The notes below the pieces were generated by a model, which saw only the letters and a program-made list of their open reading frames with translations, made no database searches and was not told the origin of the DNA. DNA of 21,518 nucleotides from IMG/VR virus record IMGVR_UViG_3300032797_000433, positions 1-21,518 of that record. One strand, given 5' to 3'. This document shows, piece by piece, positions 4,336-18,578 of this stretch (position 1 is the stretch's first letter; every line of letters begins with the position of its first letter). Origin of the DNA: a virus. The translations under genes were made by a program, and so were the position numbers.

Positions 4336-4563
4336 TTATTGCTCTTCAACTAATTCCCAGAGAATTCCATTTTTCAGCAGATTTTGTAATGCCTGTTTTT
4401 CACCAGCATTTATCTCGATGGCTCTGCCACGCTCATCTACATCTTCGAATTCAATGATTAGTTCTTCGCCTCGCCAGCCAGCATTTTTGATTTTCTTGGT
4501 CACGCCACTCAGCCTTTTGAGATTCTCTGGATTAGGGAAAACTTTTCTCAAGACTAATCTCAT
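4336..4563 (-). CDS. Hypothetical protein, 75 aa
   Basis: ATG at 4563 overlaps the hub-gene stop as ATGA (4560-4563), so this start is preferred to the in-frame TTG at 4569. The product is small and charged: basic first half (RLVLRKVFPN, TKKIKNAGWRGEELIIEF), acidic second half ending WELVEEQ. Strand-helix pattern suggests a compact alpha/beta fold. It is translationally coupled to the baseplate hub, so it could be a small tail or hub-associated protein, but the sequence gives no recognised family. Confidence 0.65.
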   Translation of the reverse strand: MRLVLRKVFPNPENLKRLSGVTKKIKNAGWRGEELIIEFEDVDERGRAIEINAGEKQALQNLLKNGILWELVEEQ

Positions 4564-6992
4564 TGCCAATTCTCCGTTGCTGATTGATAGAACACTTCTA
4601 AGGTGTAGTTGACCGCGTCATTACCATTGGCTATCAATGCCCAGAAGGTTCTGAAGTCCCCGGTTATGCCAGGGACCGTGGCGAGTTTTGCTCCATCAAC
4701 CCAAAACTCAACCTGCGTGGGCGAGATATACCGAATCTCCAGAACATAATATCGGTTTGCCTCATATTTCAGGAGCCTAGTCGCGGGACCAGTGCCGCCT
4801 ACAGCCCAAAGCCATTGGTCATACGGGGGGTCAAAATCCGACATAAAACGAAAACAGATTATGTGGGTGTCATCACGCATGAACCCTATGTATCCTCCCA
4901 AGTAGCGACCAAGAGTGTTCCATCTGACTCTGCATTTCCAGTGTGGTTGAAAGGTTGCGTTTAAGTTCAATGCCAATGTGCGCATGTCCGCTTGGCTGCC
5001 GGCTGATGCGCCACATTCAAGTTTAACATAGTTTGCGCTCGCAGTCACCTGCCCAGACCCGGCACAATGGCTTGTGTCATAACCGAATAGGGACTCAGCA
5101 GTTAAGACGAATCTATTGTCAGCGTAGTATGACATCCGCGGGAATACTTGGTCAACTTTTATGAACGTGAGCGTTCCATTAAGAATTTTCAAGTCAGTTA
5201 TTGTGGCATCTGCTATTTTAGCGTTGTCAACTGCCAGATTTGCAATTTTAGCGTTGGTCACAGCTAAGTTCGCGATCTTAGCAGATTCGACAGCTAAATC
5301 TTTGATCTTGGCTGTGAGGACAGATAGATCCTCAAGCTGGTCCGAGCCTATTCTACCTAAGCTGCCAGTGACAAAAGTGGCAGCGTAGGGACCGCCTTTC
5401 AACCTAGCTAGTTTTTCAACGGTCACGGTATATGGCCGTAATCCATAGATGTAGTCTGCTAATAATGGCGGCTCGTAGCCTAATTCAAGGGTTAACTTCA
5501 AGGTTTGGGCTTCACTGTCGAATGCCATTTCCACGAATATAACCCGATAATCACCATCCACATTCTCGTTTGGCAAGTGACAGTGCGCTAGGTCCCCCGC
5601 CCTCATCGGGTAGCTACCATAATCGATGATCTCGCTTTCCAGAACTATGTGTTCCTGGGGACCGTTGAGGTTAGCATAGAGCGCTTTGGCCCTGAGCATA
5701 CATTCCTCGTCACTGTAGAGTTCATCGTCTGTTTCAGTGTATTCCCTGGTTCCTGCTCCATAGGTTGCTTCGAATCTTTTGCCGTTGAAGTAAAGGTCAT
5801 CAACCCAGAAACTTCCCGTTCCCGAAGGTAACGGTTGTCCGCCTGGGAACCAAAGCTCCCAAATAATCGCGGCAATAGAATTCCAAGCGAAGTTGTCAAT
5901 TACGTCTGGGCCGCCGTTCCAGTTGTCTCTATTTCGGAAGCCTGCTAAGAATTTTTTGCGCATCCATTTGTTTTCTTCCAACTGAAAGTCCTGGTAAACT
6001 GTGGCCCCGAATGCGTCTTGAAGGTAGATAACGCATTGCCCTGAGAAGCCATCACCTCTTCGTATGAGGAAGTTGAAGTTTGGAAACTTGTTTGTGTTTG
6101 GCCTAAGAGACGCTGGAATATTCAGTCGCAACTGTGCATAGTAATCGGGCGTGTTAGTTGTATGGCGTATGCTGTATGTTCCTTTCTGTTTGATTGAGCT
6201 GCTGAGGGCAACCGTGCCTGTGCCTGTGCCGCTGATCCAATCATTCGTGCCATCATCGTTGATATCTAGTTTCTCTGTCCATGATTCGTCTGTGGGGAGT
6301 TTTTGGAGGGCGGCGCCGAGGACCTTAATTTTGTCTCGCTTCCTTGAGACGCTTTTGGAGTAGGATGCTACTGCGAAGTTTTCGTTAAGAAGGAATGGAG
6401 CTGCTTTGGAGCCTTTTGGGAACCATTCAACGTTGCCATCTCCTGCCACCCGGAATTCGTAGCCTATGATTCCGCTGAGGTCAGCGGTTTCGCTTATGTA
6501 TTTGATGATGTCCCATGCTGGCGTGTCCTCGTATTCAAGCAAAGTGTATGTGGTGTCGCAATCTTCGACAAGCTCGTCAACGCCTCGAGTGTGCCCTAGG
6601 CCGAGGTAATTGTCCAGCAAGTCTTTGATTATAACATGGCCTTTTGTGTTGACGTAAGTTCTAGTGATGGTTTTGCGGAAGCATTTTTCTCCGTTGCATC
6701 GCCCGGCAATCACGATAGTGTTAGTTGTGGCCTGAGCTTGACAGTCAATATCCTCCACGATCCCGGTTAGAACACGCGGCGCAGATGGCTCTCTGCCAAG
6801 ATAAATCGTAGTTGTTACGCCTAAATTAATCGGGTTGATGACCGTATATTTCTGGTCAAAATTCCACAAAATAACTGAATAGCTGGAGACTTCTTTTGTG
6901 GCGCCTAAGTGGACTTTTATTTCTTTGATGTCTGCAATGTCTGGTGTGACCGCGCCGAAAACTGCGGACCCTTTTGGGAGGGCAACGCTCAT
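4560..6992 (-). CDS. Baseplate hub / tail tip protein with carbohydrate-binding-like insertions, 810 aa
   Basis: Residues 1-235 and about 405-540 resemble the split hub domain of tail-associated proteins (gp27/Tal-type: beta-rich start, GIVEDIDCQ, TYTLLEYEDTPAWDIIKYISE, then AGDLAHCHLPN). Between them, about 240-405, lies a beta-sandwich-like insert ending FWVDDLYF, typical of carbohydrate-binding modules. A ten-residue repeat follows at 562-601 (KIANLAVTNA type). The C-terminal 200 residues look like a concanavalin/LamG-type jelly roll (YYVLEIRYISPTQVEFWVDGAKLATV). No peptidase or lysozyme motif is seen. The ATG at 6992 overlaps the tape-measure stop as ATGA. It sits right after the tape measure, the usual hub position. 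Likely role: tail-tip assembly and host envelope contact. Confidence 0.75.
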   Translation of the reverse strand: MSVALPKGSAVFGAVTPDIADIKEIKVHLGATKEVSSYSVILWNFDQKYTVINPINLGVTTTIYLGREPSAPRVLTGIVEDIDCQAQATTNTIVIAGRCNGEKCFRKTITRTYVNTKGHVIIKDLLDNYLGLGHTRGVDELVEDCDTTYTLLEYEDTPAWDIIKYISETADLSGIIGYEFRVAGDGNVEWFPKGSKAAPFLLNENFAVASYSKSVSRKRDKIKVLGAALQKLPTDESWTEKLDINDDGTNDWISGTGTGTVALSSSIKQKGTYSIRHTTNTPDYYAQLRLNIPASLRPNTNKFPNFNFLIRRGDGFSGQCVIYLQDAFGATVYQDFQLEENKWMRKKFLAGFRNRDNWNGGPDVIDNFAWNSIAAIIWELWFPGGQPLPSGTGSFWVDDLYFNGKRFEATYGAGTREYTETDDELYSDEECMLRAKALYANLNGPQEHIVLESEIIDYGSYPMRAGDLAHCHLPNENVDGDYRVIFVEMAFDSEAQTLKLTLELGYEPPLLADYIYGLRPYTVTVEKLARLKGGPYAATFVTGSLGRIGSDQLEDLSVLTAKIKDLAVESAKIANLAVTNAKIANLAVDNAKIADATITDLKILNGTLTFIKVDQVFPRMSYYADNRFVLTAESLFGYDTSHCAGSGQVTASANYVKLECGASAGSQADMRTLALNLNATFQPHWKCRVRWNTLGRYLGGYIGFMRDDTHIICFRFMSDFDPPYDQWLWAVGGTGPATRLLKYEANRYYVLEIRYISPTQVEFWVDGAKLATVPGITGDFRTFWALIANGNDAVNYTLEVFYQSATENWQ
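5190..5309 (-). repeat. Four tandem 30-bp / 10-residue repeats in the hub gene
   Basis: Four successive decapeptides start KIKD, KIAN, KIAN and KIAD, with consensus KIANLAVxNA. Similar AxIANLAV repeats occur in tail fibres as shafts between a tip-binding base and a receptor-binding head. Codons differ between copies, so the array is old or selected at protein level. Confidence 0.8.
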
Positions 6993-7908: not shown

Positions 7909-8434
7909 GGGTTTCGCCCTTGCTTGGCCTTCTCCATTGCCTTATGCGCTTCCTCGTCCAACTGGTTAAGAATCACCAAGAAGGACTCGATGACTTTAGC
8001 AGGTTGTCTTCTCAGCTCGAGGGGGGTCCAGCCGAATTCTTTGCATAGCCGAAACTCTGAAAGAGCTGGATGCGGTCTTCCTCGCTTAACTGCTCCAATA
8101 AAAAATGCAAGTCTTGTTTGGTCAGGGTGCACAAGCGACTGACTACCTGGCTGAAAAGTTCGCCTACTTCCACGGGCACGCCATTATCTGTTTCGTCCAG
8201 CAGCATAGCAAGTGTCAAGGGTGACTTGGCGGGTTTTCTACCCCTTAGGCTTGCCCACACTAGTTCTGCCTGGATGGAGACGTTGTCGCTGGATTCGACT
8301 TGGCCTGTGGCACTGCTGTATTTGGTGTATTTCTGCAGGATGCGGTTGCGTTTTGCCCAGGAGATTTCTGAGAACACGTATTCGCCCTCGAGGGCGCCCC
8401 ATTCAGGGCTGAGAATTACTTTTTCCTCTTTCAC
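7905..8434 (-). CDS. Tail assembly chaperone, long form by -1 frameshift (G-T-like), about 176 aa
   Basis: Inferred join: codons 8434-8021 in the first frame, then a one-base back-step at the C6 run and reading 8021-7905 in the -1 frame. The added 38 residues begin LELRRQPAKVIESF and end in a helical, charged tail (LDEEAHKAMEKAKQGRNP). The second frame has no convincing start of its own, and its stop overlaps the ATG of the next gene as ATGA, which argues that it is translated. Short and long chaperone forms made by -1 slippage just before the tape measure are the rule in tailed phages (lambda G/GT). The slip is not proven here. Confidence 0.6.
8012..8434 (-). CDS. Tail assembly chaperone, short form (G-like), 140 aa
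   Basis: Starts at GTG 8434 with GGAG about 10 bases upstream inside the end of the tail-tube gene. The protein is mostly helical and acidic (AMLLDETDNGVPVEVGELFSQVV, LLEQLSEEDRIQLFQSFGYAK), and ends shortly after the C6 run with SAGPPSS. Position directly after the tail tube, size, helical content and an overlapping -1 frame together identify it as the tail assembly chaperone that coats the tape measure during tube assembly. The sequence itself has no strong family signature that I recognise; the call rests mainly on context. Confidence 0.7.
   Translation of the reverse strand: MKEEKVILSPEWGALEGEYVFSEISWAKRNRILQKYTKYSSATGQVESSDNVSIQAELVWASLRGRKPAKSPLTLAMLLDETDNGVPVEVGELFSQVVSRLCTLTKQDLHFLLEQLSEEDRIQLFQSFGYAKNSAGPPSS
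8021..8027 (-). promoter_or_regulatory. Candidate -1 frameshift slippery site, A CCC CCC
   Basis: On the minus strand the zero frame reads GGA CCC CCC TCG and then stops two codons later. A one-base back-step on the six C residues re-pairs the A-site codon fully and the P-site codon in two of three positions, and enters the long -1 frame. It is not a classic X XXY YYZ heptamer, and I see no strong downstream stem-loop. A sequencing indel in a homopolymer is the main alternative. Confidence 0.5.
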
Positions 8435-8440
8435 TTTGGC

Positions 8441-9277
8441 CTAACTCTCCGTAAGAGTTAATGCGTCAAACTCCAACTTCTGCGCAACCAGGTCCTCAAT
8501 CTTGGTGGGCTCGCTGGTCTTTTTCCACTTGCAGTTGCCAAACGTGAAAATCTTTTTCTGCGCCCCGGCGCCCACCTCGAATGCTACGGCCCTGGATGTG
8601 TCAGCGATGATGTCATCAATTTCTGCTTTGCTTTCGAAGTCGGCTGTGATGGACCCGGATAACTCGAGGTGACGTCTTGGCAGCGCCTTGAGTAGGTGCG
8701 GATTTGTGCTTCGTATGACAGGTTGCCTTTTCAGGTTGTTGGTCACTGTGAAGGAGAAGCCGCTGAACCTGGTGACTTCGACAGCGGCCACTTTGACCAC
8801 GCAGTCTGTGCTCATGATTGGCTCGGCTGCTGGCGTGCTCTCGTAACTGTTGCCTATCTTGCTGGTCCCGGGGGCCACGTCCTGTGCCATGCCTTCGATG
8901 CCGATTTTGACAGGCTCGTCTATTGACCCGGTGATTGTGGCTTTGTTGATTTTGAGTCCCTTGTGGTTCAGGCTGATTATGGCCGCAGCCTTCTCATAAA
9001 ATACTTCGAGGCTCACGCTTTTGTCATTGCCCACGTATGCCCAGAAATCCCAGTCTCGAGGAACATAGTTTAGGGTCAAGTCGACGGTGCGCAGTGTCTT
9101 TCTGATGCTTTGGACGTTGCGAGATCCGAGTCCGCGTACAAGGATGTTCTTTGGGTCCAGGCTTGGTTCTGCGTCTTGGATGATGCCGATATAAAGCATC
9201 GCTGGTGTTACAGGAGTCTGGCCGTATGTGACCTCTTCAACATAGTATGCATTAGCCTCTTCTCCGATGTAACTCAA
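8441..9277 (-). CDS. Major tail tube protein, 278 aa
   Basis: A beta-rich protein beginning SYIGEEANAYYVEEVTYGQTPVTPAM, with a central pair of homologous-looking halves (TLRTVDLTLNYVPRDWDFW ... RHLELSGSITADFESKAEIDDI) and a FTFGNCKWKK strand near the end. This layout (Gly/Thr start, ELSGSI and D-x-x-D patterns) is typical of tail tube proteins of siphoviruses. It comes before the chaperone pair, as expected. The start is TTG at 9277 with GGGAGGT 8 bases upstream; the next ATGs are too far inside. No sheath gene is near, so a non-contractile tail is likely. Confidence 0.75.
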   Translation of the reverse strand: MSYIGEEANAYYVEEVTYGQTPVTPAMLYIGIIQDAEPSLDPKNILVRGLGSRNVQSIRKTLRTVDLTLNYVPRDWDFWAYVGNDKSVSLEVFYEKAAAIISLNHKGLKINKATITGSIDEPVKIGIEGMAQDVAPGTSKIGNSYESTPAAEPIMSTDCVVKVAAVEVTRFSGFSFTVTNNLKRQPVIRSTNPHLLKALPRRHLELSGSITADFESKAEIDDIIADTSRAVAFEVGAGAQKKIFTFGNCKWKKTSEPTKIEDLVAQKLEFDALTLTES

Positions 9278-9281
9278 AATT

Positions 9282-9701
9282 TCAGACCTCCCTGAACGTT
9301 TGAATGGTTATGCGTATTTGCTTTAAATCACTGTCGGTAAGCTCATCGATGCGCTCAGCGCGGATTACTTTCGCCCAGGTGACCAGGCCGCTTAAGGTTC
9401 TATTGGTGCGAATGTTGGCTTCGATGGCTTCCGTGGCATCGCACACGAATTGCTCAGCCACATCCTGCTTAGCTAGACGATGGCAGACAGTTACGCGGTA
9501 GTTGTGGTCCTTGCGCACGCTTGAGCCACCGAGACCCATGAGGGCAATCGGCCCGCCCTCAAATTCAACAAAGATGCAAGGAAAGCGATTGAGCTGGGGA
9601 GGGCGCCCAAAATAGTATTCCCGGATAATGTTCGGTTTCTTCAGGGCCTCGTCTGCACTGAGCAAGTCGATGATCTTCTGAATAATCTCCTTATAGGTCA
9701 A
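9282..9701 (-). CDS. Tail terminator / tail completion-like protein, 139 aa
   Basis: The N-terminal helix (YKEIIQKIIDLLSADEAL) followed by IIREYYFGRPPQLNRFPCIFVEFEGGP and then a conserved strand region (HNYRVTVCHRL) matches the usual pattern of minor tail/terminator proteins (lambda gpU or DUF3168-like: index helix, PYIFV..E, strand with tail). It starts at TTG 9701, overlapping the previous stop as TTGA, and ends just before the tail tube's SD, which lies inside its last codons. Gene order connector, terminator, tube is canonical. Family assignment is by pattern and position. Confidence 0.65.
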   Translation of the reverse strand: MTYKEIIQKIIDLLSADEALKKPNIIREYYFGRPPQLNRFPCIFVEFEGGPIALMGLGGSSVRKDHNYRVTVCHRLAKQDVAEQFVCDATEAIEANIRTNRTLSGLVTWAKVIRAERIDELTDSDLKQIRITIQTFREV

Positions 9702-10036
9702 TCCGCGTCAGCTTCTCCCTGCACAAATTCTGCTTCGCCCGTGGATGTGGCTGTGCCCATTGCTGTGAATAGGGCCACGCCGCTTTCGTAGAAGTGCTGG
9801 GAGTTAGTCTCGCCTGCTTCACGTTTCCTGAAAAGCCATGCGGCGAAGAACCGGGCAATCTGCTCAATGATTGCCGGGGTTGGCGAGGCAATGGTCACGC
9901 CTGCCGCTGTTGCCATTGCATCAACCATGCTGCTTGCGGTGCTGATATCCTGATCGATCTCCTCGTCTGCTGTCAGGTCTGATGCATCTATTCGCAACTC
10001 TTTTTTGACTAACTCAATAGTTGTGTACCTGGTCAA
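9698..10036 (-). CDS. Head-tail connector-like protein, 112 aa
   Basis: Pattern TTIELVKKELRIDASDLTADEEIDQDISTASSMVDAM at the N terminus and a following helical bundle (AIIEQIARFFAAWLFRKRE) resemble the gp6/gp15 type of head-tail connector: an ELR-I start, an acidic D-x-x-I-D-x-x-I helix, then long helices. The last 25 residues are acidic and Ala/Gly-rich (GEAEFVQGEADAD). Start is TTG at 10036 with GAAGGTG upstream. It lies between the Ig-like protein and the tail terminator, where a connector is expected. Confidence 0.65.
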   Translation of the reverse strand: MTRYTTIELVKKELRIDASDLTADEEIDQDISTASSMVDAMATAAGVTIASPTPAIIEQIARFFAAWLFRKREAGETNSQHFYESGVALFTAMGTATSTGEAEFVQGEADAD

Positions 10037-10039
10037 GGC

Positions 10040-10348
10040 TTACACCTTCAATGCGCATACCGTGAAGAAAAACTGCTCCGTTTCAACCATCGAACCGAGG
10101 GTGCCCTTAACTGTGTAACTCCAATCACCATAAGCAGCATCAGTTGGGATGGCATAGTCGTAGTGAAACTTGCCTGTGCTGTCTTTGGTGAATTGAACAT
10201 CAGTGACAGTAGCCTTGAGGGCCCCGGCTGGATCATAAATCTTCATTTCTTTAGTACCTGAGTCTGGGTCCTGGTATTGCCCGGTAACCTCGTTTTTATA
10301 CCAGGCGTTAATTCTGCGGGTATCTCCACGATGGATTTTCTCAACCAT
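10040..10348 (-). CDS. Ig-like beta-sandwich virion protein, 102 aa
   Basis: A compact all-beta protein: VEKIHRGDTRRINAWYKN, then MKIYDPAGALKATVTDVQF, GKFHYDYAIPTDAAYGDWSYTVKGTLG and a final FFFTVCAL strand. The order GDT.R-I, Y.DP.GA, G.F.Y.Y..P.DA..G.W.Y.V.G is seen in small Ig-like domains attached to or encoded beside virion structural proteins. It is only 6 bases downstream of the giant propeller/repeat gene, so it may decorate the head or link the fibre to the particle. Role inferred from fold and place. Confidence 0.65.
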   Translation of the reverse strand: MVEKIHRGDTRRINAWYKNEVTGQYQDPDSGTKEMKIYDPAGALKATVTDVQFTKDSTGKFHYDYAIPTDAAYGDWSYTVKGTLGSMVETEQFFFTVCALKV

Positions 10349-10354
10349 GCTCTA

Positions 10355-13300
10355 TCACTTTACCAGCGTCTCAATTGTTACGAGCTGAGACACTGCAGAC
10401 TGTATATCCACCACTTGTGTTATTGAGCTTTCTATCAGTAGTGGCTCTGATTCTGGACCGCTTATCGATGCCATACCGCTGATTACCTGTGCTGTTACCA
10501 CATTCTTAATGAAACCATACCCGCTGATTTCTTTCTGAGTTATTCCTTTGAGCCATGCGTTGCCAATGATTGTTTGCAACGTGTAGCCAGCACTGACAAG
10601 CCACGCATAACCTGATATCTCTCGTTCAGTTGAGGTTTTCAGATGAGCATTTCCACTAATTTGCTGTAAGCTTTCGCCTTTTATTTGGGCATAACCACTA
10701 ATCTGCTGGCTTGCGGCTGTCGAAAGTGCTGCGTACCCACTGATTTGTTGTGATGTCATGCCTTTCAGCCAGGCTTCACCGCTAATCTGCCGTTCAGTTA
10801 AAGTCTTGAGCCAAGCATATCCATCTATTGTGCGCGTTTGGACAGTGCCATACCAAATTTCCGCCATGCCGCTGATTTCTTGAGTGGTTGTTCCTTTTAT
10901 GTGAGCATTGCCAGATACCTGTTGAGAAGATACATGTTTAAGCGTTGCATATCCGCCAATAGTTTTGGATTGCCCCACTTGTTTGATATGTGCACTCCCA
11001 GAGATTTCTTGAGAGGCACCTGTTTGTTTTAGCCATGAGTAGCCTGAGATGTTCTTCTCAGTTATTGCCTTAATGTTAGCGTAACCTTCAATTTCCTTTG
11101 AGGTTGTAGCTTTCAGCCAGGAGTAGCCCTCAATTGGTTTTGGGAGCCCGGGTATCAAAAGAACGTGGTGAACTGCCATTAGTGGTAGTGCGTTTCCGCT
11201 TTCTATTTCATAGAAAACAGGCACTTTGGATGAAGTTAAATCTGCAACATAGCCGCACGTGAAATTATCGTAGTATAGAATGGCGTTTAACCATTCATCA
11301 GCGAATAGACTCTCGCTTCCCCATGCGCCGCTTTGGTACAGTTGATAGTAGTAGGACTCTCCGTAACTGCCAGATGCGCCGCCTGTGTCTTTAACATAGA
11401 TGGCGATTAAATCGTTAACCGATGGGACCGAAATTAATGATATTCCCATGCCGCCTGTGCCGAGAGTTCCTGCGATTACGGCTTCAGTTAGCCAACTTGA
11501 ACCGTTATATTGCATGTGGCGAAATTCAGCGGTGCTTCCATTCAACCAGCGGTATGCCACATGAACATTGTTGCCGTTTGATGTGCATGATAGGGCTGTT
11601 CCTCGATCTGAAATTTGTGCGGATGTGTCAGCAGGCGCTGCCCACGAATCAGTACTGTAAGTGTATTTTGATGTTCTTACTTTTGCCCCGGTTATAGACC
11701 AGATTGCCATTATGTCTCGATTTGTCATGAAGGCAAGAACAACGCCTATAGACCCAGAATAAGTTGCTGCACCATCGAGTTCTTTTGGAAAACCTGAGGC
11801 AGTAGTCCAAGTGCCATCATTCGTTGTTGAACGGCAACATAAAGGACGGTTTTTGTTGTCGCCTGAACGGTATTCTGTCCAACTTATCCATGGGTAACCT
11901 GATGAATCGATTGTGATGTAGGGAGTTATATATAGTTTTGTTGCATCGGCGGCGATTACGGTTACCCAATCTGAAGTCCAATCGATTGATCCGTCTGAAA
12001 CAAGGAGACCGCGCCTGTACTGCAAAGCGTTATTGTAAGTTGGAATGCTAAATACGCAGTGGACATAGTCTGTTGATCGGTCATGCCACATGGCGAAGGT
12101 TTTTGAACCGTTAATTCCTGGTGAGTTTTTTGCTACTGCGGAACCTTTCCATGTTTTGCCGTCATCAGGTGTTGAATTATAAGCAATGTCGGTGCCATCG
12201 CAGTAGAAAAGCCAGTCTCTTGATAGAGCCCTACATGCTTTGCGTTGGAGTGATGGTCCTATTGTGTATCTTTGAGTGCTTAACTTGGAGACATATAATG
12301 GAAGTTCTGCTGCTTTGATTGTGTATGGCGATGCGTTGTCAGTTAAATAAACAATCTCGCATCGCATGCCATTATGGACATAACATCCCGAAATATGACC
12401 TGCGGGCAAGGTCGCAGTGGATTCGTCAAGCCAATCGACCTCTGCATCCCATGTTTTTGCTACGGCACTATATTTGAGGTAGTAAATGTGGTTAGATATG
12501 GCGTAGAAGACGTATTCATCGCCATTGCTGATGACTATCAGACATGGACATGTGGATGAACTACTACCGCTGCGGATGATCACTTCAACTTCAGCTGCTG
12601 TGTTCCATTTCTTAGTGATTGCTATAAGATTGTTGCTTGATGATTTGTTGAAGACTATTCGGCTTTCATCATTTTGGAGAAACCCACTGACACCGACATA
12701 GAATGCACTTGCAATTGTACTTGAGGAAACGTCAATAGGTCCACTTAATCCGCCGCTTGGGTCCCATTCTTTACAGCGGATAATCGCGGCATTGTAGAAA
12801 TAGAAGAATACTAATTTGCCAGCACTTAATCTTGTAATCGTGCCCATGTGGGTTGATGAAGTTGTTTCTGAAAGATTTTGAGGGTAGCCACTACGGTTTG
12901 ACCATGTTCCATCGCGGTTAGCGTTTATGGCAACTCGAGGTTTCTGCGATAGTTGATAAATGACTGCAGGGTAACTTTCTGAACTAACCCTGATCGCTGG
13001 ATAAGTCATCGCTAATCCAGCTTGGGTTTCGATGGTTTGATCGGCACTCCATGTGATCGTGCCATCGGCTTTCATTTCCCCCCTTTTGTATTTTAAGGGG
13101 TCGCCGTTTACACCATCATGCCAAATACAATGAATGAAGAATAAGCCATAGTCTGCGCCATACTTTCCTCTCTCAATGTCAAAGTCAACATTGCGCATGT
13201 TACTGATGCCTGAAAGAACGGGCGTTTTGCCTGACCATGTTGAATAATTAGTGCTTGTGCGGAAGACTATGTCAGTGCCATCTGAATAAAACACCCACCA

Positions 13301-14026
13301 TCTTCCACAAATGTAGAATACTCTGTGTTGAGGTCCCGATGCGATTGCAGTGGTTAATGTGGTGTCGTCCACTGCTACCGTAGTGGATTTGCTGAACGTT
13401 AAAGTTTGGCTGAATTCAATCCACGGGTTATATAGGCTTGTTGAAGTATCATCCTCAGGCAAGTCATTAGGGCTATTATCTCCAAAAGTGATTGCGGCGA
13501 GTTGTTGATTTACGTTTTCCTCTCTGAATCCGATTTCAACGATTAAGCGGTCTCCGTTTTGGGCGACAACACTTGACAACGAAACAGGAGTGCTTTCAGC
13601 AGCATTGAGAAACCTTCTGTTAATGAAGTCTGATGTTGCAAATTCTGGTGGGGTAGTGTCAGTTTTATCTGAAGCGGTTATAGCAAGGAGAGTTCCTCGA
13701 ACTGTATCACCATCATAGGACACTACACGAATGCCTATAGCCAATGTTGCATTCTGGGCGGCGTACATTTCCTTGCATTTCATTTGCGCCTTAACTGTTC
13801 CCGTTATCGTCTGCGCTGTCAAGGGATCTGAAATATACTGTTTGAGAAGTGTGTATTCCGCGCCAGCGCCAGTTGAACTAAAACCTGGTTGATTTCCAAA
13901 GGCTGAATTGATCTTTGCTGTCAGCATTTTTTGGCGAGCGACTTCGCTTGTGCGAGTCCAACCTGCATCATAAGCTGGTGTAATAGGGGCTTCGCCTGTG
14001 CTTGGCAGATAGAATCGTGTTACCAT
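10355..14026 (-). CDS. Giant spike/fibre protein: duplicated beta-propeller-like domains and a 16-copy repeat shaft, 1223 aa
   Basis: Residues 1-225 form a beta-rich N-terminal domain (probable particle attachment). Two homologous units follow, about 228-580 and 588-955, each opening with GP...R.....W.FY.DGTDI....S....TW.G and repeating aromatic/Gly/Asp motifs such as YKRG...DG.I.W and DGTW....G.P; they look like sialidase-type propellers but I see no full catalytic set. Residues 963-1193 are 16 tandem repeats (consensus QEISGYAxLKxxTS), and the last 30 residues are hydrophobic (ITQVVDIQSAVSQLVTIETLV). It is encoded in the neck/head block, between the capsid and connector genes, rather than after the tail tip. 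Likely a surface adhesin, head fibre or whisker; ligand unknown. It takes about 17 percent of the window. Confidence 0.8.
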   Translation of the reverse strand: MVTRFYLPSTGEAPITPAYDAGWTRTSEVARQKMLTAKINSAFGNQPGFSSTGAGAEYTLLKQYISDPLTAQTITGTVKAQMKCKEMYAAQNATLAIGIRVVSYDGDTVRGTLLAITASDKTDTTPPEFATSDFINRRFLNAAESTPVSLSSVVAQNGDRLIVEIGFREENVNQQLAAITFGDNSPNDLPEDDTSTSLYNPWIEFSQTLTFSKSTTVAVDDTTLTTAIASGPQHRVFYICGRWWVFYSDGTDIVFRTSTNYSTWSGKTPVLSGISNMRNVDFDIERGKYGADYGLFFIHCIWHDGVNGDPLKYKRGEMKADGTITWSADQTIETQAGLAMTYPAIRVSSESYPAVIYQLSQKPRVAINANRDGTWSNRSGYPQNLSETTSSTHMGTITRLSAGKLVFFYFYNAAIIRCKEWDPSGGLSGPIDVSSSTIASAFYVGVSGFLQNDESRIVFNKSSSNNLIAITKKWNTAAEVEVIIRSGSSSSTCPCLIVISNGDEYVFYAISNHIYYLKYSAVAKTWDAEVDWLDESTATLPAGHISGCYVHNGMRCEIVYLTDNASPYTIKAAELPLYVSKLSTQRYTIGPSLQRKACRALSRDWLFYCDGTDIAYNSTPDDGKTWKGSAVAKNSPGINGSKTFAMWHDRSTDYVHCVFSIPTYNNALQYRRGLLVSDGSIDWTSDWVTVIAADATKLYITPYITIDSSGYPWISWTEYRSGDNKNRPLCCRSTTNDGTWTTASGFPKELDGAATYSGSIGVVLAFMTNRDIMAIWSITGAKVRTSKYTYSTDSWAAPADTSAQISDRGTALSCTSNGNNVHVAYRWLNGSTAEFRHMQYNGSSWLTEAVIAGTLGTGGMGISLISVPSVNDLIAIYVKDTGGASGSYGESYYYQLYQSGAWGSESLFADEWLNAILYYDNFTCGYVADLTSSKVPVFYEIESGNALPLMAVHHVLLIPGLPKPIEGYSWLKATTSKEIEGYANIKAITEKNISGYSWLKQTGASQEISGSAHIKQVGQSKTIGGYATLKHVSSQQVSGNAHIKGTTTQEISGMAEIWYGTVQTRTIDGYAWLKTLTERQISGEAWLKGMTSQQISGYAALSTAASQQISGYAQIKGESLQQISGNAHLKTSTEREISGYAWLVSAGYTLQTIIGNAWLKGITQKEISGYGFIKNVVTAQVISGMASISGPESEPLLIESSITQVVDIQSAVSQLVTIETLVK
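10448..11140 (-). repeat. Sixteen tandem ~42-bp coding repeats (14-16 residues each)
   Basis: Residues 963-1193 of the giant protein repeat with consensus [KQ][EQ]ISG[YN]A.[IL]K..TS. Eleven copies are 14 residues, four are 15 and one is 16. The invariant Ile-x-Gly and alternating hydrophobics suggest one beta-solenoid turn per repeat. Nucleotide identity between copies is limited, so this is not a fresh expansion. Confidence 0.9.
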
Positions 14027-14028
14027 TT

Positions 14029-14532
14029 TTAGCTCAACGTCACTTTCCCATCTTGGTGAATATAGAGGATGTGTTTGATGTTTCTTTTCTCAAGATGATA
14101 GCATTGCATGCTGTGGTCCGAAATTGGAATGTCAACTGTAGCTTGCCAGCCTATCGCATAGATGTGAAAGCCCGGAATATACTCTGCAGTATCACTTGGT
14201 AGTAACATGCGGATGAAGTTTGTTCTGCGTCTATGGTAAATTGGCCGTAGTTCAGCTGCTTTCCAATCTCCGCCGCCAGTGATAGGATACTCAACGTCCG
14301 GGTGTTGTGCCCATTGTACGCCCATAGCTGAAAGCGATGAACCGTTTATGAAGAAATCGCCAGTGTCCAGGTCAACGCCATAACGGAATTCGCCAAGCTC
14401 ATCTCTTAAGATGAGTTTGCGCACTTCCATTGCAATTGGCACGATGTCCCTTGAGAATGTTAAGCCATCTATCTCTCGCTTGACTTCACCGTTGCGTAAC
14501 AAAACTTCCCAGAAAAACAAAGGTTGAGGCAT
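14029..14532 (-). CDS. Hypothetical virion-associated protein, 167 aa
   Basis: The product is beta-rich with aromatic and Trp residues: PLFFWEVLLRNGEVKREIDGLTFSRD at the N terminus, a central DLDTGDFFINGSSLS, a basic HRRRTNFIRMLL, and a His/Cys-containing C terminus (HSMQCYHLEKRNIKHILYIHQDG). I do not recognise the family. It is 2 bases upstream of the giant spike gene and therefore likely co-translated with it; a base, chaperone or attachment role for the spike is possible. There is no signal peptide or membrane span. Confidence 0.65.
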   Translation of the reverse strand: MPQPLFFWEVLLRNGEVKREIDGLTFSRDIVPIAMEVRKLILRDELGEFRYGVDLDTGDFFINGSSLSAMGVQWAQHPDVEYPITGGGDWKAAELRPIYHRRRTNFIRMLLPSDTAEYIPGFHIYAIGWQATVDIPISDHSMQCYHLEKRNIKHILYIHQDGKVTLS

Positions 14533-14555: not shown

Positions 14556-15059
14556 TTAAGATTCATCGTATTTCAATGTCAATGTGTTAGGCCCGAATAC
14601 TCCAACGGCTGCAGTTACTAATGTTTGCATTTGCGTATGGATATAGGCACTGTATGTTGGGTTTGCGCTGTAGGAGTCATTTGTTGCGGTTTCGGGTGTG
14701 GCACCAAACTGCACGACTAAAGCTGACCCTTCAACTATGGGCATATCTTGTGCGCCAATGCTTGTTTTGGCAGGGGTTGCATAGACGATTACAACATACC
14801 CTTTCAGCTTCACATCAGCTGGAAGATTCTGTGTTGAATGCCAAACTTTACCATTAGGACCCACTTGCCCATTACCTGTAAAATGTCCGCCTATGTATTT
14901 GTCGAAGCTGTTTTCTCCGCGTGGGATTTTGTTGGCCTCGAGCGTGTAGTCAAGTTTATTTTGGTCAACGTTGCCCCAGTTTACGTTTGGCGCTGATGGC
15001 ATGTGGCTCTGGGTTTTTCCAGCGCCGTTCCATTCATCCCATTCAAAGCCTTTGACCAT
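14556..15059 (-). CDS. Hypothetical virion protein, 167 aa
   Basis: Starts at ATG 15059 with GGAG 9 bases upstream. The N-terminal third is Gly/Asn-rich and polar (GFEWDEWNGAGKTQSHMPSA, NVNWGNVDQN), followed by a beta-sandwich-like body (VKLKGYVVIVYATP, EGSALVVQFGA) and an end AAVGVFGPNTLTLKYDES. The equal length (167 aa) of its neighbour 14029-14532 is coincidental; I see no similarity between them. Its place between the capsid and the spike genes suggests a minor capsid or head-surface protein. Function unknown. Confidence 0.65.
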   Translation of the reverse strand: MVKGFEWDEWNGAGKTQSHMPSAPNVNWGNVDQNKLDYTLEANKIPRGENSFDKYIGGHFTGNGQVGPNGKVWHSTQNLPADVKLKGYVVIVYATPAKTSIGAQDMPIVEGSALVVQFGATPETATNDSYSANPTYSAYIHTQMQTLVTAAVGVFGPNTLTLKYDES

Positions 15060-15430: not shown

Positions 15431-16312
15431 TTAAGTCAGCGTGTTGATTTCCACGATGGCTTTTGGCCGCTTGATGTATGGCACTGCGACTTCCCAGACT
15501 TTGCCCCTGTAGTTCATGTCTGCCTTTTGATGCATGAAGGTTGTTGGGTTCTGCGCTATGCCTAAGACGAAGTTGTCAAATCCCGGTTGGCACACAACTA
15601 CACTGTCCTGGTCACCGTCGGCTGCAAATAGGTTGTCACTGACGATTACTTGGTCGACCATTTCCTGAATGACTTTGAGTAGCAATGTCCCGGTGTTTGA
15701 GATTAATGCGAGCAACTGTCCGTAGAATGTGCTTGGCATGATTGCTGCGTAGGGTCCATAGAATCCGTATGCCTGTAGAAGAGCGATGGCCGCGCCAACT
15801 TCAGTGACTGCTGTAGCACTCCAGTCTCCACCGTTAACTGCTTGGCGGCCTGTCGCGGTTGTTAGTCCCTGGATGCCGTAGGCTCGCCAGCCCGTGTATT
15901 CTCCTGTTAGGCATAGTTTGTCTTCTTCTTCAGCGCATTGAATAGCAGCGTTTCTTGCACTCATGACATCGAGCGGTGTTCCATAGCGTCTGCTCGAGGC
16001 GATGTCTCTGAAGAACAGGTCAAAGTTCTTGCTTATCATGGGCACAGTCACGTCTTTTTCAGCCAGGACTACTCGGTCACCTGAATCCGTTAAGCCATCC
16101 ATGTCGATGACAGCTTGTCCCATGTCAGTTATCGAATATTGTCTCCAGGTGCGGACGCCAATATCCGCGATGGGTGCCGGGGCGAAAATTCGCCTAGCGA
16201 TCAACTGAGGCCTCGCAGCGTCAATAACAGCGTTCTCGATTATGCGGATCTCTTCAGTTGTCAGTGATCCAGTGTCTACTCCGACTTTGCTTAAACCATA
16301 TTGTCCAGACAT
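15431..16312 (-). CDS. Major capsid protein, HK97 fold, encapsulin-like family, 293 aa
   Basis: The protein lacks a long N-terminal delta domain and has the layout of the encapsulin/linocin-like branch of HK97-fold proteins: N-terminal EEIRIIENAVIDAARPQLIARRIF, a P-domain-like stretch with RTWRQYSITDMGQAVIDMDG, the E-loop region, FDLFFRDIASSRRYGTPLDVMSARNAA, AEEEDKLCLTGEYT, IQGLTT and a C-terminal TTFMHQKADMNYRGKVWEVAVPYIKRPKAIVEI. ATG at 16312 is chosen because AGGAG stands 11 bases upstream; a GTG at 16321 is only 2 bases from it. It follows the decoration and scaffold genes. It forms the icosahedral shell. Confidence 0.85.
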   Translation of the reverse strand: MSGQYGLSKVGVDTGSLTTEEIRIIENAVIDAARPQLIARRIFAPAPIADIGVRTWRQYSITDMGQAVIDMDGLTDSGDRVVLAEKDVTVPMISKNFDLFFRDIASSRRYGTPLDVMSARNAAIQCAEEEDKLCLTGEYTGWRAYGIQGLTTATGRQAVNGGDWSATAVTEVGAAIALLQAYGFYGPYAAIMPSTFYGQLLALISNTGTLLLKVIQEMVDQVIVSDNLFAADGDQDSVVVCQPGFDNFVLGIAQNPTTFMHQKADMNYRGKVWEVAVPYIKRPKAIVEINTLT

Positions 16313-16326
16313 TCTTTTCACTGCTC

Positions 16327-17286: not shown

Positions 17287-18279
17287 TTAGCGGAGATTCT
17301 TCCGCTTTTGAAGAACGTTCTTCGCTCGTTCAACTTCTTTAGCTGGGTCCAATGTTGGCGGTGGAGGCGGTGGCGGATTCTGCTCGGCGCCCTCATCTAG
17401 GGGCTTCTGTTCGCCGTTGCCTGCTGCTGCGGCCATATCTCCCCATGCTTTGGTTATGGCATCGTTGTGTGAGCTGAACCATTCTTTCGCTGAGGCCATA
17501 GTCCAGCCCTCGCTCTTAGGGAATATGTAACTTTGAACATACCATTCGTCTGAGTCTTTCCGTTTGCAGTAGACAGCTTTGATCCCTTTTGGTAGCTTGC
17601 CATCGAAGTCAGTGGTTCTGCAGGTCTCGGCTTGGCTAGCGTCACCATGCCCACTGCGGATTGAGTCTTCGGTTTCCTCCCAGGGATCCGCATGTGCTTG
17701 CACGTCTTCAGGCAGAAAGACAGCGTCAACGCTGATCTCGCATGGAAATCCATCCCGGGTGCCTCTGCCCAAGGCCACGCCTGCGGCCACGTGGTTGACC
17801 ATGATGTTCTTCTGGACGAAGTCGTATTTTTCGCCCTTGTATTCGCCGGGCTCTAAAACGTCCTGGCTGAGAAAGCCGATGCTTACGTCTTTGCGTTTGT
17901 GCGTGCGCACTTCCTCGAGGAAGGCGGGGTCGCAACGGTCCTTCAAGAAGTGGACTTGCCCGCGCACGCCGGGCGTTGTGCCTTTGCCATCAGGTAGTGG
18001 TATAGCCTCGTCCCATTGGATGCTGCCTGTGTGACCCTTTACATCTGCCGGGTTTGTCAGGATCATGTAGGGCGGATGCTTGCCTGTGACCACCCAGGTG
18101 GCAAACGTGAGCATGCTGTTTTTCAGCTCGGTTGCTGGCCTGAATGACTTGCCGCTTGGATATCGTAGGACGGCTTCTCGGGCTAGGACCGCTGGTACAA
18201 CCAGCTCTTTCTCATCGTCCAGGATGATTTTTGTGGAGTCAATCTCAGCTATGCTTGTTCCAAACTTGCGCATGTTCAT
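17287..18279 (-). CDS. Prohead protease, DUF2213-like, with a C-terminal extra domain, 330 aa
   Basis: The frame is open further upstream, but ATG at 18279 overlaps the Mu gpF-like stop as ATGA and has GAGAGG 7 bases before it. Residues 30-190 carry family landmarks: H68-P69 (TGKHPP), GVRGQVHF, S133 in DVSIGF, and N162-H163-V in IMVNHVAAGVALGRG. His-Ser-His is the catalytic arrangement of assemblin-type capsid proteases; H68, S133 and H163 are candidates. A second domain, about 222-272 (YVQSYIFPKSEGWTMASAKEWFSSH), is a small module often found fused to phage head proteins. Then comes a P8-type linker (NPPPPPPPT) and a basic helical tail that may bind scaffold. It cleaves scaffold and/or capsid during head maturation. 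Confidence 0.8.
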   Translation of the reverse strand: MNMRKFGTSIAEIDSTKIILDDEKELVVPAVLAREAVLRYPSGKSFRPATELKNSMLTFATWVVTGKHPPYMILTNPADVKGHTGSIQWDEAIPLPDGKGTTPGVRGQVHFLKDRCDPAFLEEVRTHKRKDVSIGFLSQDVLEPGEYKGEKYDFVQKNIMVNHVAAGVALGRGTRDGFPCEISVDAVFLPEDVQAHADPWEETEDSIRSGHGDASQAETCRTTDFDGKLPKGIKAVYCKRKDSDEWYVQSYIFPKSEGWTMASAKEWFSSHNDAITKAWGDMAAAAGNGEQKPLDEGAEQNPPPPPPPTLDPAKEVERAKNVLQKRKNLR

Positions 18280-18578
18280 GCACGTTCCTCTCTGGTTTTT
18301 AGTTCTTGGAAATGAACGTCCCAGTGGCAGCGACAATTTGGATGCACAGGAATGTTGGGCACGAATTGGCCTCTTTTGTAGCGGCGCCCGGATTGGCTGT
18401 CGCAGTAGTCGCATGAGCGCTCGTCTACTTCGGTGATCCACTCAAATTCTGTAGCGCCTGCCTGCGTTCCCAGGACCTTCAATGATTCGTTGATGACCTG
18501 CCAAGTCATTGATTCTGCTAGGTCTTCGATGCGCACATAGAGACCCTCATTGGTCGACCAGAAGTCGCTGCTGCTCAA
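18276..18578 (-). CDS. Mu gpF / SPP1 gp7-like minor head protein, C-terminal domain only, 100 aa
   Basis: The signature FEWITEVDERSCDYCDSQSG (C56-x2-C59) followed by PVHPNCRC (H79, C82, C84) is the conserved MuF core. Family members usually have 200 or more residues with a helical N-terminal region; here only about 45 residues precede the core, so the protein is a stripped-down form. Start TTG at 18578 is the first possible one after an upstream in-frame TAA at 18603-18605; SD is weak (GGAA). It lies after the portal and before the protease, as expected, but is separated from the portal by a plus-strand gene. Confidence 0.85.
   Translation of the reverse strand: MSSSDFWSTNEGLYVRIEDLAESMTWQVINESLKVLGTQAGATEFEWITEVDERSCDYCDSQSGRRYKRGQFVPNIPVHPNCRCHWDVHFQELKTREERA

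Follow-up and report, generated by a model that had tools for sequence, protein, structure and literature searches.

The 21,518-nucleotide stretch analysed here (the window; positions 1 to 21,518 of the viral record IMGVR_UViG_3300032797_000433 in IMG/VR) encodes, as its largest open reading frame (ORF), a 1223-residue protein, hereafter the spike, that is probably an adhesin. The chances are even, in our judgement, that the full proposal holds, namely that the spike serves as a modular adhesin on the head or neck of a tailed virus of Bathyarchaeia and that its host-type propellers bind glycans. From the N- to the C-terminus, the spike is composed of an N-terminal domain, two propellers (A and B), an array of repeats forming a shaft, and a short C-terminal tail (Table 1). 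It is a variant of an already known kind, the modular receptor-binding spike, and no named protein with the complete architecture was found. No Pfam or PHROG family was matched above threshold, an absence that proves nothing by itself; a phmmer search with the spike against PDB sequences gave zero matches, and the whole spike used as the sole query against viral contigs gave zero relatives. An earlier note, made by a model from the letters of the window, had described the largest gene of the window as a 1223-residue spike with an attachment domain, two homologous propeller-like units of about 350 residues, and 16 shaft repeats, encoded between capsid and connector genes and resembling no named protein. 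The ORF is indeed present and intact on the minus strand, and its domain order, duplication, repeat count, gene position, and lack of a named match are borne out by the results given below, as is the presence of a propeller in the predicted model; the attachment role of the N-terminal domain stands as a proposal, as does the beta-solenoid-like form that the note gave to the shaft.

The two propellers are homologous to each other. A local alignment of the two halves scored 187, compared to 40 ± 6 (maximum 77) in 500 shuffles, and a propeller hidden Markov model (HMM) matched residues 224–585 (1e-107) and 584–954 (4e-106); because both halves are rows of this HMM, its E-values serve to delimit the units and add no independent evidence. 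The AlphaFold2 (AF2) model of unit A, based on 15 rows comprising the window and viral relatives, reached a predicted local distance difference test score (pLDDT) of 85 and a predicted template modelling score (pTM) of 0.85, with approximately 28 strands. Seven blades were read from these strands together with the structural matches, and unit B is counted as a propeller by homology. Matches to solved structures included a Rha-GlcA lyase (7esk, Z 29.1) and the glycoside hydrolases BACINT_00347 (Z 28.6) and BT3686 (Z 26.5), as well as the PLL fucose lectins (Z 27.8 at 3.1 Å). As modelled, the propeller is thus a seven-bladed fold of the sugar-lyase/lectin type, shared with PLL lectins, Rha-GlcA lyase, and BT3686-type hydrolases (Z 26–29) at a sequence identity of only 8–16%. 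Among the viral models in BFVD, the matches included tail-fibre and sialidase proteins, such as those of Serratia phage Parlo and Pectobacterium phage MA13; these adhesin-type viral proteins have a related fold, although their identity is 8–15% and their other domains differ. The propeller profile gave one weak match and no close sequence match in the PDB.

The N-terminal domain belongs to a family named MATRFYLP in the present analysis. Its AF2 model, built on a 41-row alignment, had a pLDDT of 92.6 and a pTM of 0.90. The top matches among solved structures were the C-terminal beta-sandwiches of cocaine esterase/PepX (Z 11.3, 160 aa, 3.0 Å), followed by birnavirus VP2 and carbohydrate-binding modules, while among viral models the best matches were uncultured Caudovirales proteins (E 6e-18) and, more weakly, a fusellovirus end-filament protein. 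The conserved features of the family are the start M-A-T-R-x-Y-L-P, W23, G166, G182, D188, and W202, to which the window domain conforms, with V at residue 2. The domain was identified in 47 IMG/VR loci and, among 50,697 phage records, in no more than three distinct phages (Muntaha, Wakanda, and MW202601/MW202604); in the 257 Bathyarchaeia-class genomes, only two matches were obtained, both weak and partial. Some of the IMG/VR proteins consist of this domain only; in others it precedes Ser-rich linkers, arrays whose period is approximately 14, 20–23, or 36 aa, or globular inserts, which include a propeller-like stretch in locus L003 and, read by eye, LamG-like stretches elsewhere. Since it recurs alone or on other shafts, it is a separate domain, a virus-only module joined to very different repeat shafts. 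This distribution is as expected for a virion module serving as the base of exchangeable shafts, while a role as anchor can only be proposed, because lectin-like domains have this fold too. Two stand-alone genes for this domain occur in tandem in L046 (9962–11319) and in L047 (2354–3682), and stand-alone copies frequently carry a terminal motif like NQLMMTGCGT.

The shaft consists of exactly 16 units counted from residue 965, the final one being shortened, and its identity at a lag of 14 residues was 67/220, compared to 17 ± 3.8 (maximum 29) in 2000 shuffles. By sequence, the repeats have a beta-type look, where a fibritin-like neck whisker would have a long trimeric coiled coil, and related repeats were found in L080 and L103. 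The latter (G238:C20) is a contig of 10.4 kb from a Bathyarchaeia-class genome and has a viral look; it encodes one propeller protein together with two proteins that contain 14-aa repeats of the type ELLGKAxIRHSASA.

Very probably, the virus infects Bathyarchaeia and belongs to a tailed, Bathyarchaeia-associated lineage: relatives of its major capsid protein (MCP) with 40–48% identity were found in IMG/VR and in two Bathyarchaeota metagenome-assembled genomes (MAGs), and the provirus L102, which bears a related tail module, resides on a 324-kb contig from a Bathyarchaeia-class genome. Propeller relatives were also identified in 20/257 Bathyarchaeia-class genomes. Many of these host carriers show, as read by eye, a signal-like start and Ig-, PKD-, or dockerin-like parts. 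Two of the host genes adjoin the ribosomal S9/L13e and the PheS/PheT genes, and at least those are therefore chromosomal. The exported host proteins (L099, L101, L097, L106, and others) are homologous to the spike propellers along most of their length, with approximately 23–37% identity, and differ in their signal-like starts, their Ig/PKD/dockerin-like or membrane-like parts, and the lack of the viral N-terminal domain. When viral contigs were scanned with only the two propeller halves of the window, zero relatives were obtained; the addition of Bathyarchaeia propeller copies to the query yielded 17 viral loci. In the propeller tree, host and virus copies were intermixed and viral monophyly was rejected (p-AU 1.8e-5), whereas the test did not reject the two window copies as sisters (p 0.73); the branches are long, and finer statements are unsafe. 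The sequences thus argue for an exchange of the propeller between host surface proteins and viruses.

Taken together, these features suggest the following mode of action for the spike. The N-terminal domain would dock it on the virion, most likely on the capsid or the neck, while the 16-repeat region would form a fibrous or rigid stalk, probably oligomeric, as its repeats suggest. The two exposed propellers would bind, or less likely cleave, archaeal cell-surface glycans in a first, reversible adsorption step, as suggested by their fold and by the sharing with hosts. The propeller may have been duplicated within the spike gene, or two copies may have been fused, perhaps for avidity or a wider specificity.

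We slightly favour a mount on the head or neck over one on the tail tip. The spike gene lies upstream of the probable adaptor, between the MCP gene and the run of adaptor, terminator, and tube genes, and not downstream of the tail hub. Five viruses (the window, L102, L110, L116, and L117) have a propeller protein in this head/neck slot, and in the sibling loci L051–L059 the slot between MCP and adaptor holds other large proteins, for example, beta-helix (L057), PKD-repeat (L051), or repeat/beta-rich proteins. The gene of the N-terminal domain is likewise situated between the MCP and tail genes in the phages Muntaha, Wakanda, and MW202601 and in the IMG/VR locus L006; the phage gene order was read in the Muntaha and MW202601 regions, where the domain lies between the MCP and the adaptor or tail genes. 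The proteins concerned, gp27 of the Streptomyces phages Muntaha and Wakanda and a 223-aa protein of MW202601, are approximately 35% identical to the window domain, although they are stand-alone, uncharacterised proteins of 220–250 aa without propellers or shaft. The tape-measure-like protein of the window (161 aa; 180–181 aa in L107–L109) would imply a very short tail, and the cell could then be within reach of a spike on the head or neck. By analogy, a head mount has its best precedent in the turrets of HFTV1. They are composed of a gp30 base and a gp31 head, numbered between the connector gp26/completion protein gp29 and the tube gp35, and the head includes a galactose-binding-like domain that is proposed to attach reversibly to S-layer glycans (PMC12494034). 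Both are large surface proteins of archaeal tailed viruses, and the window spike is likewise encoded among connector/neck genes, ahead of the tube gene, the HFTV1 gene order being taken from the gp numbers. In contrast, a deacetylase-like domain is part of the HFTV1 head protein, whose description includes neither a propeller nor 14-aa repeats, while the window spike ends in a 14-aa repeat array instead of a polysaccharide-deacetylase-like domain; moreover, the HFTV1 position on capsid hexamers is solved, whereas the window spike is known from its gene and was compared by description.

Several points weigh against the proposed head- or neck-mounted, glycan-binding adhesin. We infer both the virion location and the glycan binding of the members from sequences and models, and the galactose-binding-like N-terminal domain could be a lectin instead of an anchor. 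In the spike, the shaft follows the propellers on their C-terminal side, which inverts the usual sequence of anchor, shaft, and tip. The host link consists of MCP-lineage relatives in two MAGs and the provirus L102, not of a spacer match of the contig. Above all, related proteins occupy tail positions, which suits the alternative that the spike is an ordinary receptor-binding fibre of the tail tip or tail side whose gene moved upstream into the head block, a rather less probable reading that nevertheless carries weight. In L107–L109 and L123, the propeller protein lies directly behind the tail hub group, and the head block of L102 holds a cassette of a 75-aa protein, a 177-aa protein, and a propeller like the one behind the L107–L109 hub. 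Spikes with the N-terminal domain are found near distal-tail and lysis genes in L003 and L038. In L113 (IMGVR_UViG_3300031862_000503), the propeller is part of the tail tube itself: ORF 1593–3620 matches Phage_tube_2 and bears a seven-bladed-type propeller, and its flanks 1–163 and 519–675, searched apart, match residues 1–158 (66%) and 158–316 (58%) of the L116 tube; because these are contiguous in L116, approximately 355 aa were inserted at a single point. L116 combines an uninterrupted tube with a propeller protein just upstream of the adaptor. A scan with the L116 tube yielded zero further tubes with an insert, and a literature search for a propeller inserted in a tail tube gave no text match beyond one unrelated Staphylococcus phage paper. 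Against a tail fibre, the five viruses with a propeller protein in the head/neck slot can be set, as can the hub of the window, which already has its own fibre-like extension; the hubs of L107–L109 and L123 comprise only about 529 aa. The PHROG counts for neighbours of N-terminal-domain genes were mixed and do not settle head versus tail. Related viruses thus differ in where on the virion the propeller sits, so that gene order by itself tilts the odds without locating the spike. The earlier suggestion of a head fibre or neck whisker therefore stands as regards the gene position, and its step from position to location is weakened by the relatives with propellers behind the hub or inside the tube; some homologues lie in the tail-fibre position, and none is characterised. 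Tentatively, with somewhat less than even confidence, we propose that one host-exchanged receptor-binding propeller has moved among three virion sites, namely the head/neck spike (the window, L102, L110, L116, and L117), the tail tube (L113), and the tail-tip spike (L107–L109 and L123), that the window copy was duplicated on a head/neck-mounted spike, and that the N-terminal domain serves many swappable shafts in archaeal and bacterial viruses.

As for the function of the propellers, they might instead cleave surface polysaccharide in the manner of a Rha-GlcA lyase or GH145, making the spike a depolymerase for penetrating the archaeal glycan coat. The lyase and the BT3686-kind glycoside hydrolases at the top of the structural matches agree with this, and R242/R603, D283/D649, H299/H656, and R315/R672, conserved in both copies and in host and viral relatives, may leave room for catalysis. 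However, the non-enzymatic PLL lectins score nearly as high, with a similar or lower root-mean-square deviation, the conserved residues were placed by sequence alone, and Pfam returned a weak BNR_2 match in two relatives only and none for the window copy, so that we regard an enzymatic spike as unlikely. It seems similarly improbable that the host-type propeller docks, through partner mimicry, to the assemblies bound by the exported propellers of the host and not to free glycans. The intermixed tree would suit such a homotypic anchor, as would the presence of the host copies in exported, partly PKD/dockerin-like proteins, but no partner is known, and the dockerin-like ends were read by eye and occur on host copies only.

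If the proposed relocation among virion sites is true, each tube subunit of L113 would display one propeller. Within one virus group, one and the same propeller is encoded in head/neck, tail-tip, and tail tube genes, which makes adhesin relocation testable and calls for caution, as an adhesin cannot be placed on the particle by gene order alone. Bathyarchaeia are abundant uncultured sediment archaea. The searched papers on their viruses made no mention of propellers, and no description of viral attachment to Bathyarchaeia was found. The locus offers expressible candidate receptor-binding domains, the two propellers, related to the exported proteins of the hosts themselves.

Table 1. Features of the spike and of neighbouring genes in the window.
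Feature	Positions	Strand	Basis
Whole spike ORF, 1223 aa	10355..14026	(-)	ATG start, without internal stop
N-terminal domain, residues 1-211, PepX_C/galactose-binding-like beta-sandwich	13394..14026	(-)	Relatives, AF2, fold matches
Propeller A, residues 224-585	12272..13357	(-)	Alignment of halves, HMM, AF2
Propeller B, residues 584-954, homologous to A, ~28% identity	11165..12277	(-)	Alignment of halves, HMM, tree
Shaft, residues 965-1192, 16 repeats of 14-16 aa, ISGYAWLKxxTSQQ type	10451..11134	(-)	Repeat count, lag identity
C-terminal tail, residues 1193-1223, beyond the repeats	10358..10450	(-)	
MCP	15431..16321	(-)	Linocin_M18/encapsulin Pfam family; phrog_264
167-aa protein, one relative (L118 18095-18568, 34%)	14556..15059	(-)	
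167-aa protein immediately upstream of spike, zero relatives found	14029..14532	(-)	
g102, 102-aa MG2/Ig-like protein adjoining spike	10040..10348	(-)	
Probable head-tail adaptor	9698..10036	(-)	Weak HMM matches, position, homologues
Tail terminator	9282..9701	(-)	Weak match
Tail tube, Phage_tube_2	8441..9277	(-)	
Two small genes past the tube	8012-8434, plus a phrog_5 neck/tail-completion relative		
Likely tape measure, 161 aa	6989-7474		Position
Tail hub with own C-terminal fibre-like extension	4560..6992	(-)	Residues 546-615 match tail-fibre phrog_892

The late block of the window lies on the minus strand and reads, from high to low positions, terminase, portal, protease, a 125-aa gene, decoration protein, MCP, an 85-aa gene, the two 167-aa genes, spike, g102, probable adaptor, terminator, tube, two small genes, likely tape measure, and hub. 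Among the fetched loci, relatives of g102 were found only in L052, L103, and L110, each adjoining, or one gene away from, a repeat- or propeller-bearing protein; accompanied by such neighbours, g102 may be a mounting or assembly partner of the spike. Profile comparison did not support a relationship of g102 to the small Ig-like proteins behind other spikes with the N-terminal domain (L006, L012). The MCP scored 93 bits against Linocin_M18 (cut-off 24.3) and is a virus capsid protein near the encapsulins. A conserved protein of approximately 460–560 aa, missing in the window, is situated behind the adaptor in L053 (16152–17774), L054 (15458–17080), L055 (15037–16656), L057 (12243–13931), L059 (15558–17171), and L107 (1556–3136), the L107 copy having no Pfam match. 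Past the MCP group, L052, L053, L054, L055, and L057 contain, as read by eye, genes resembling glycosyltransferase and methyltransferase fusions, in a variable slot beside spike-like proteins. A short ORF at 18276–18578 of the window with a MuF-like motif of the HPNCRC type overlaps the start given for ORF 17287–18441, the protease, whose true start is probably further in. Finally, positions 1–56 of the window are what we take to be an Illumina TruSeq adapter (acggcatacgagat...gtgctcttccgatct; translation VTGVQTCALPI), and this adapter-like sequence is an assembly artefact at the contig end.

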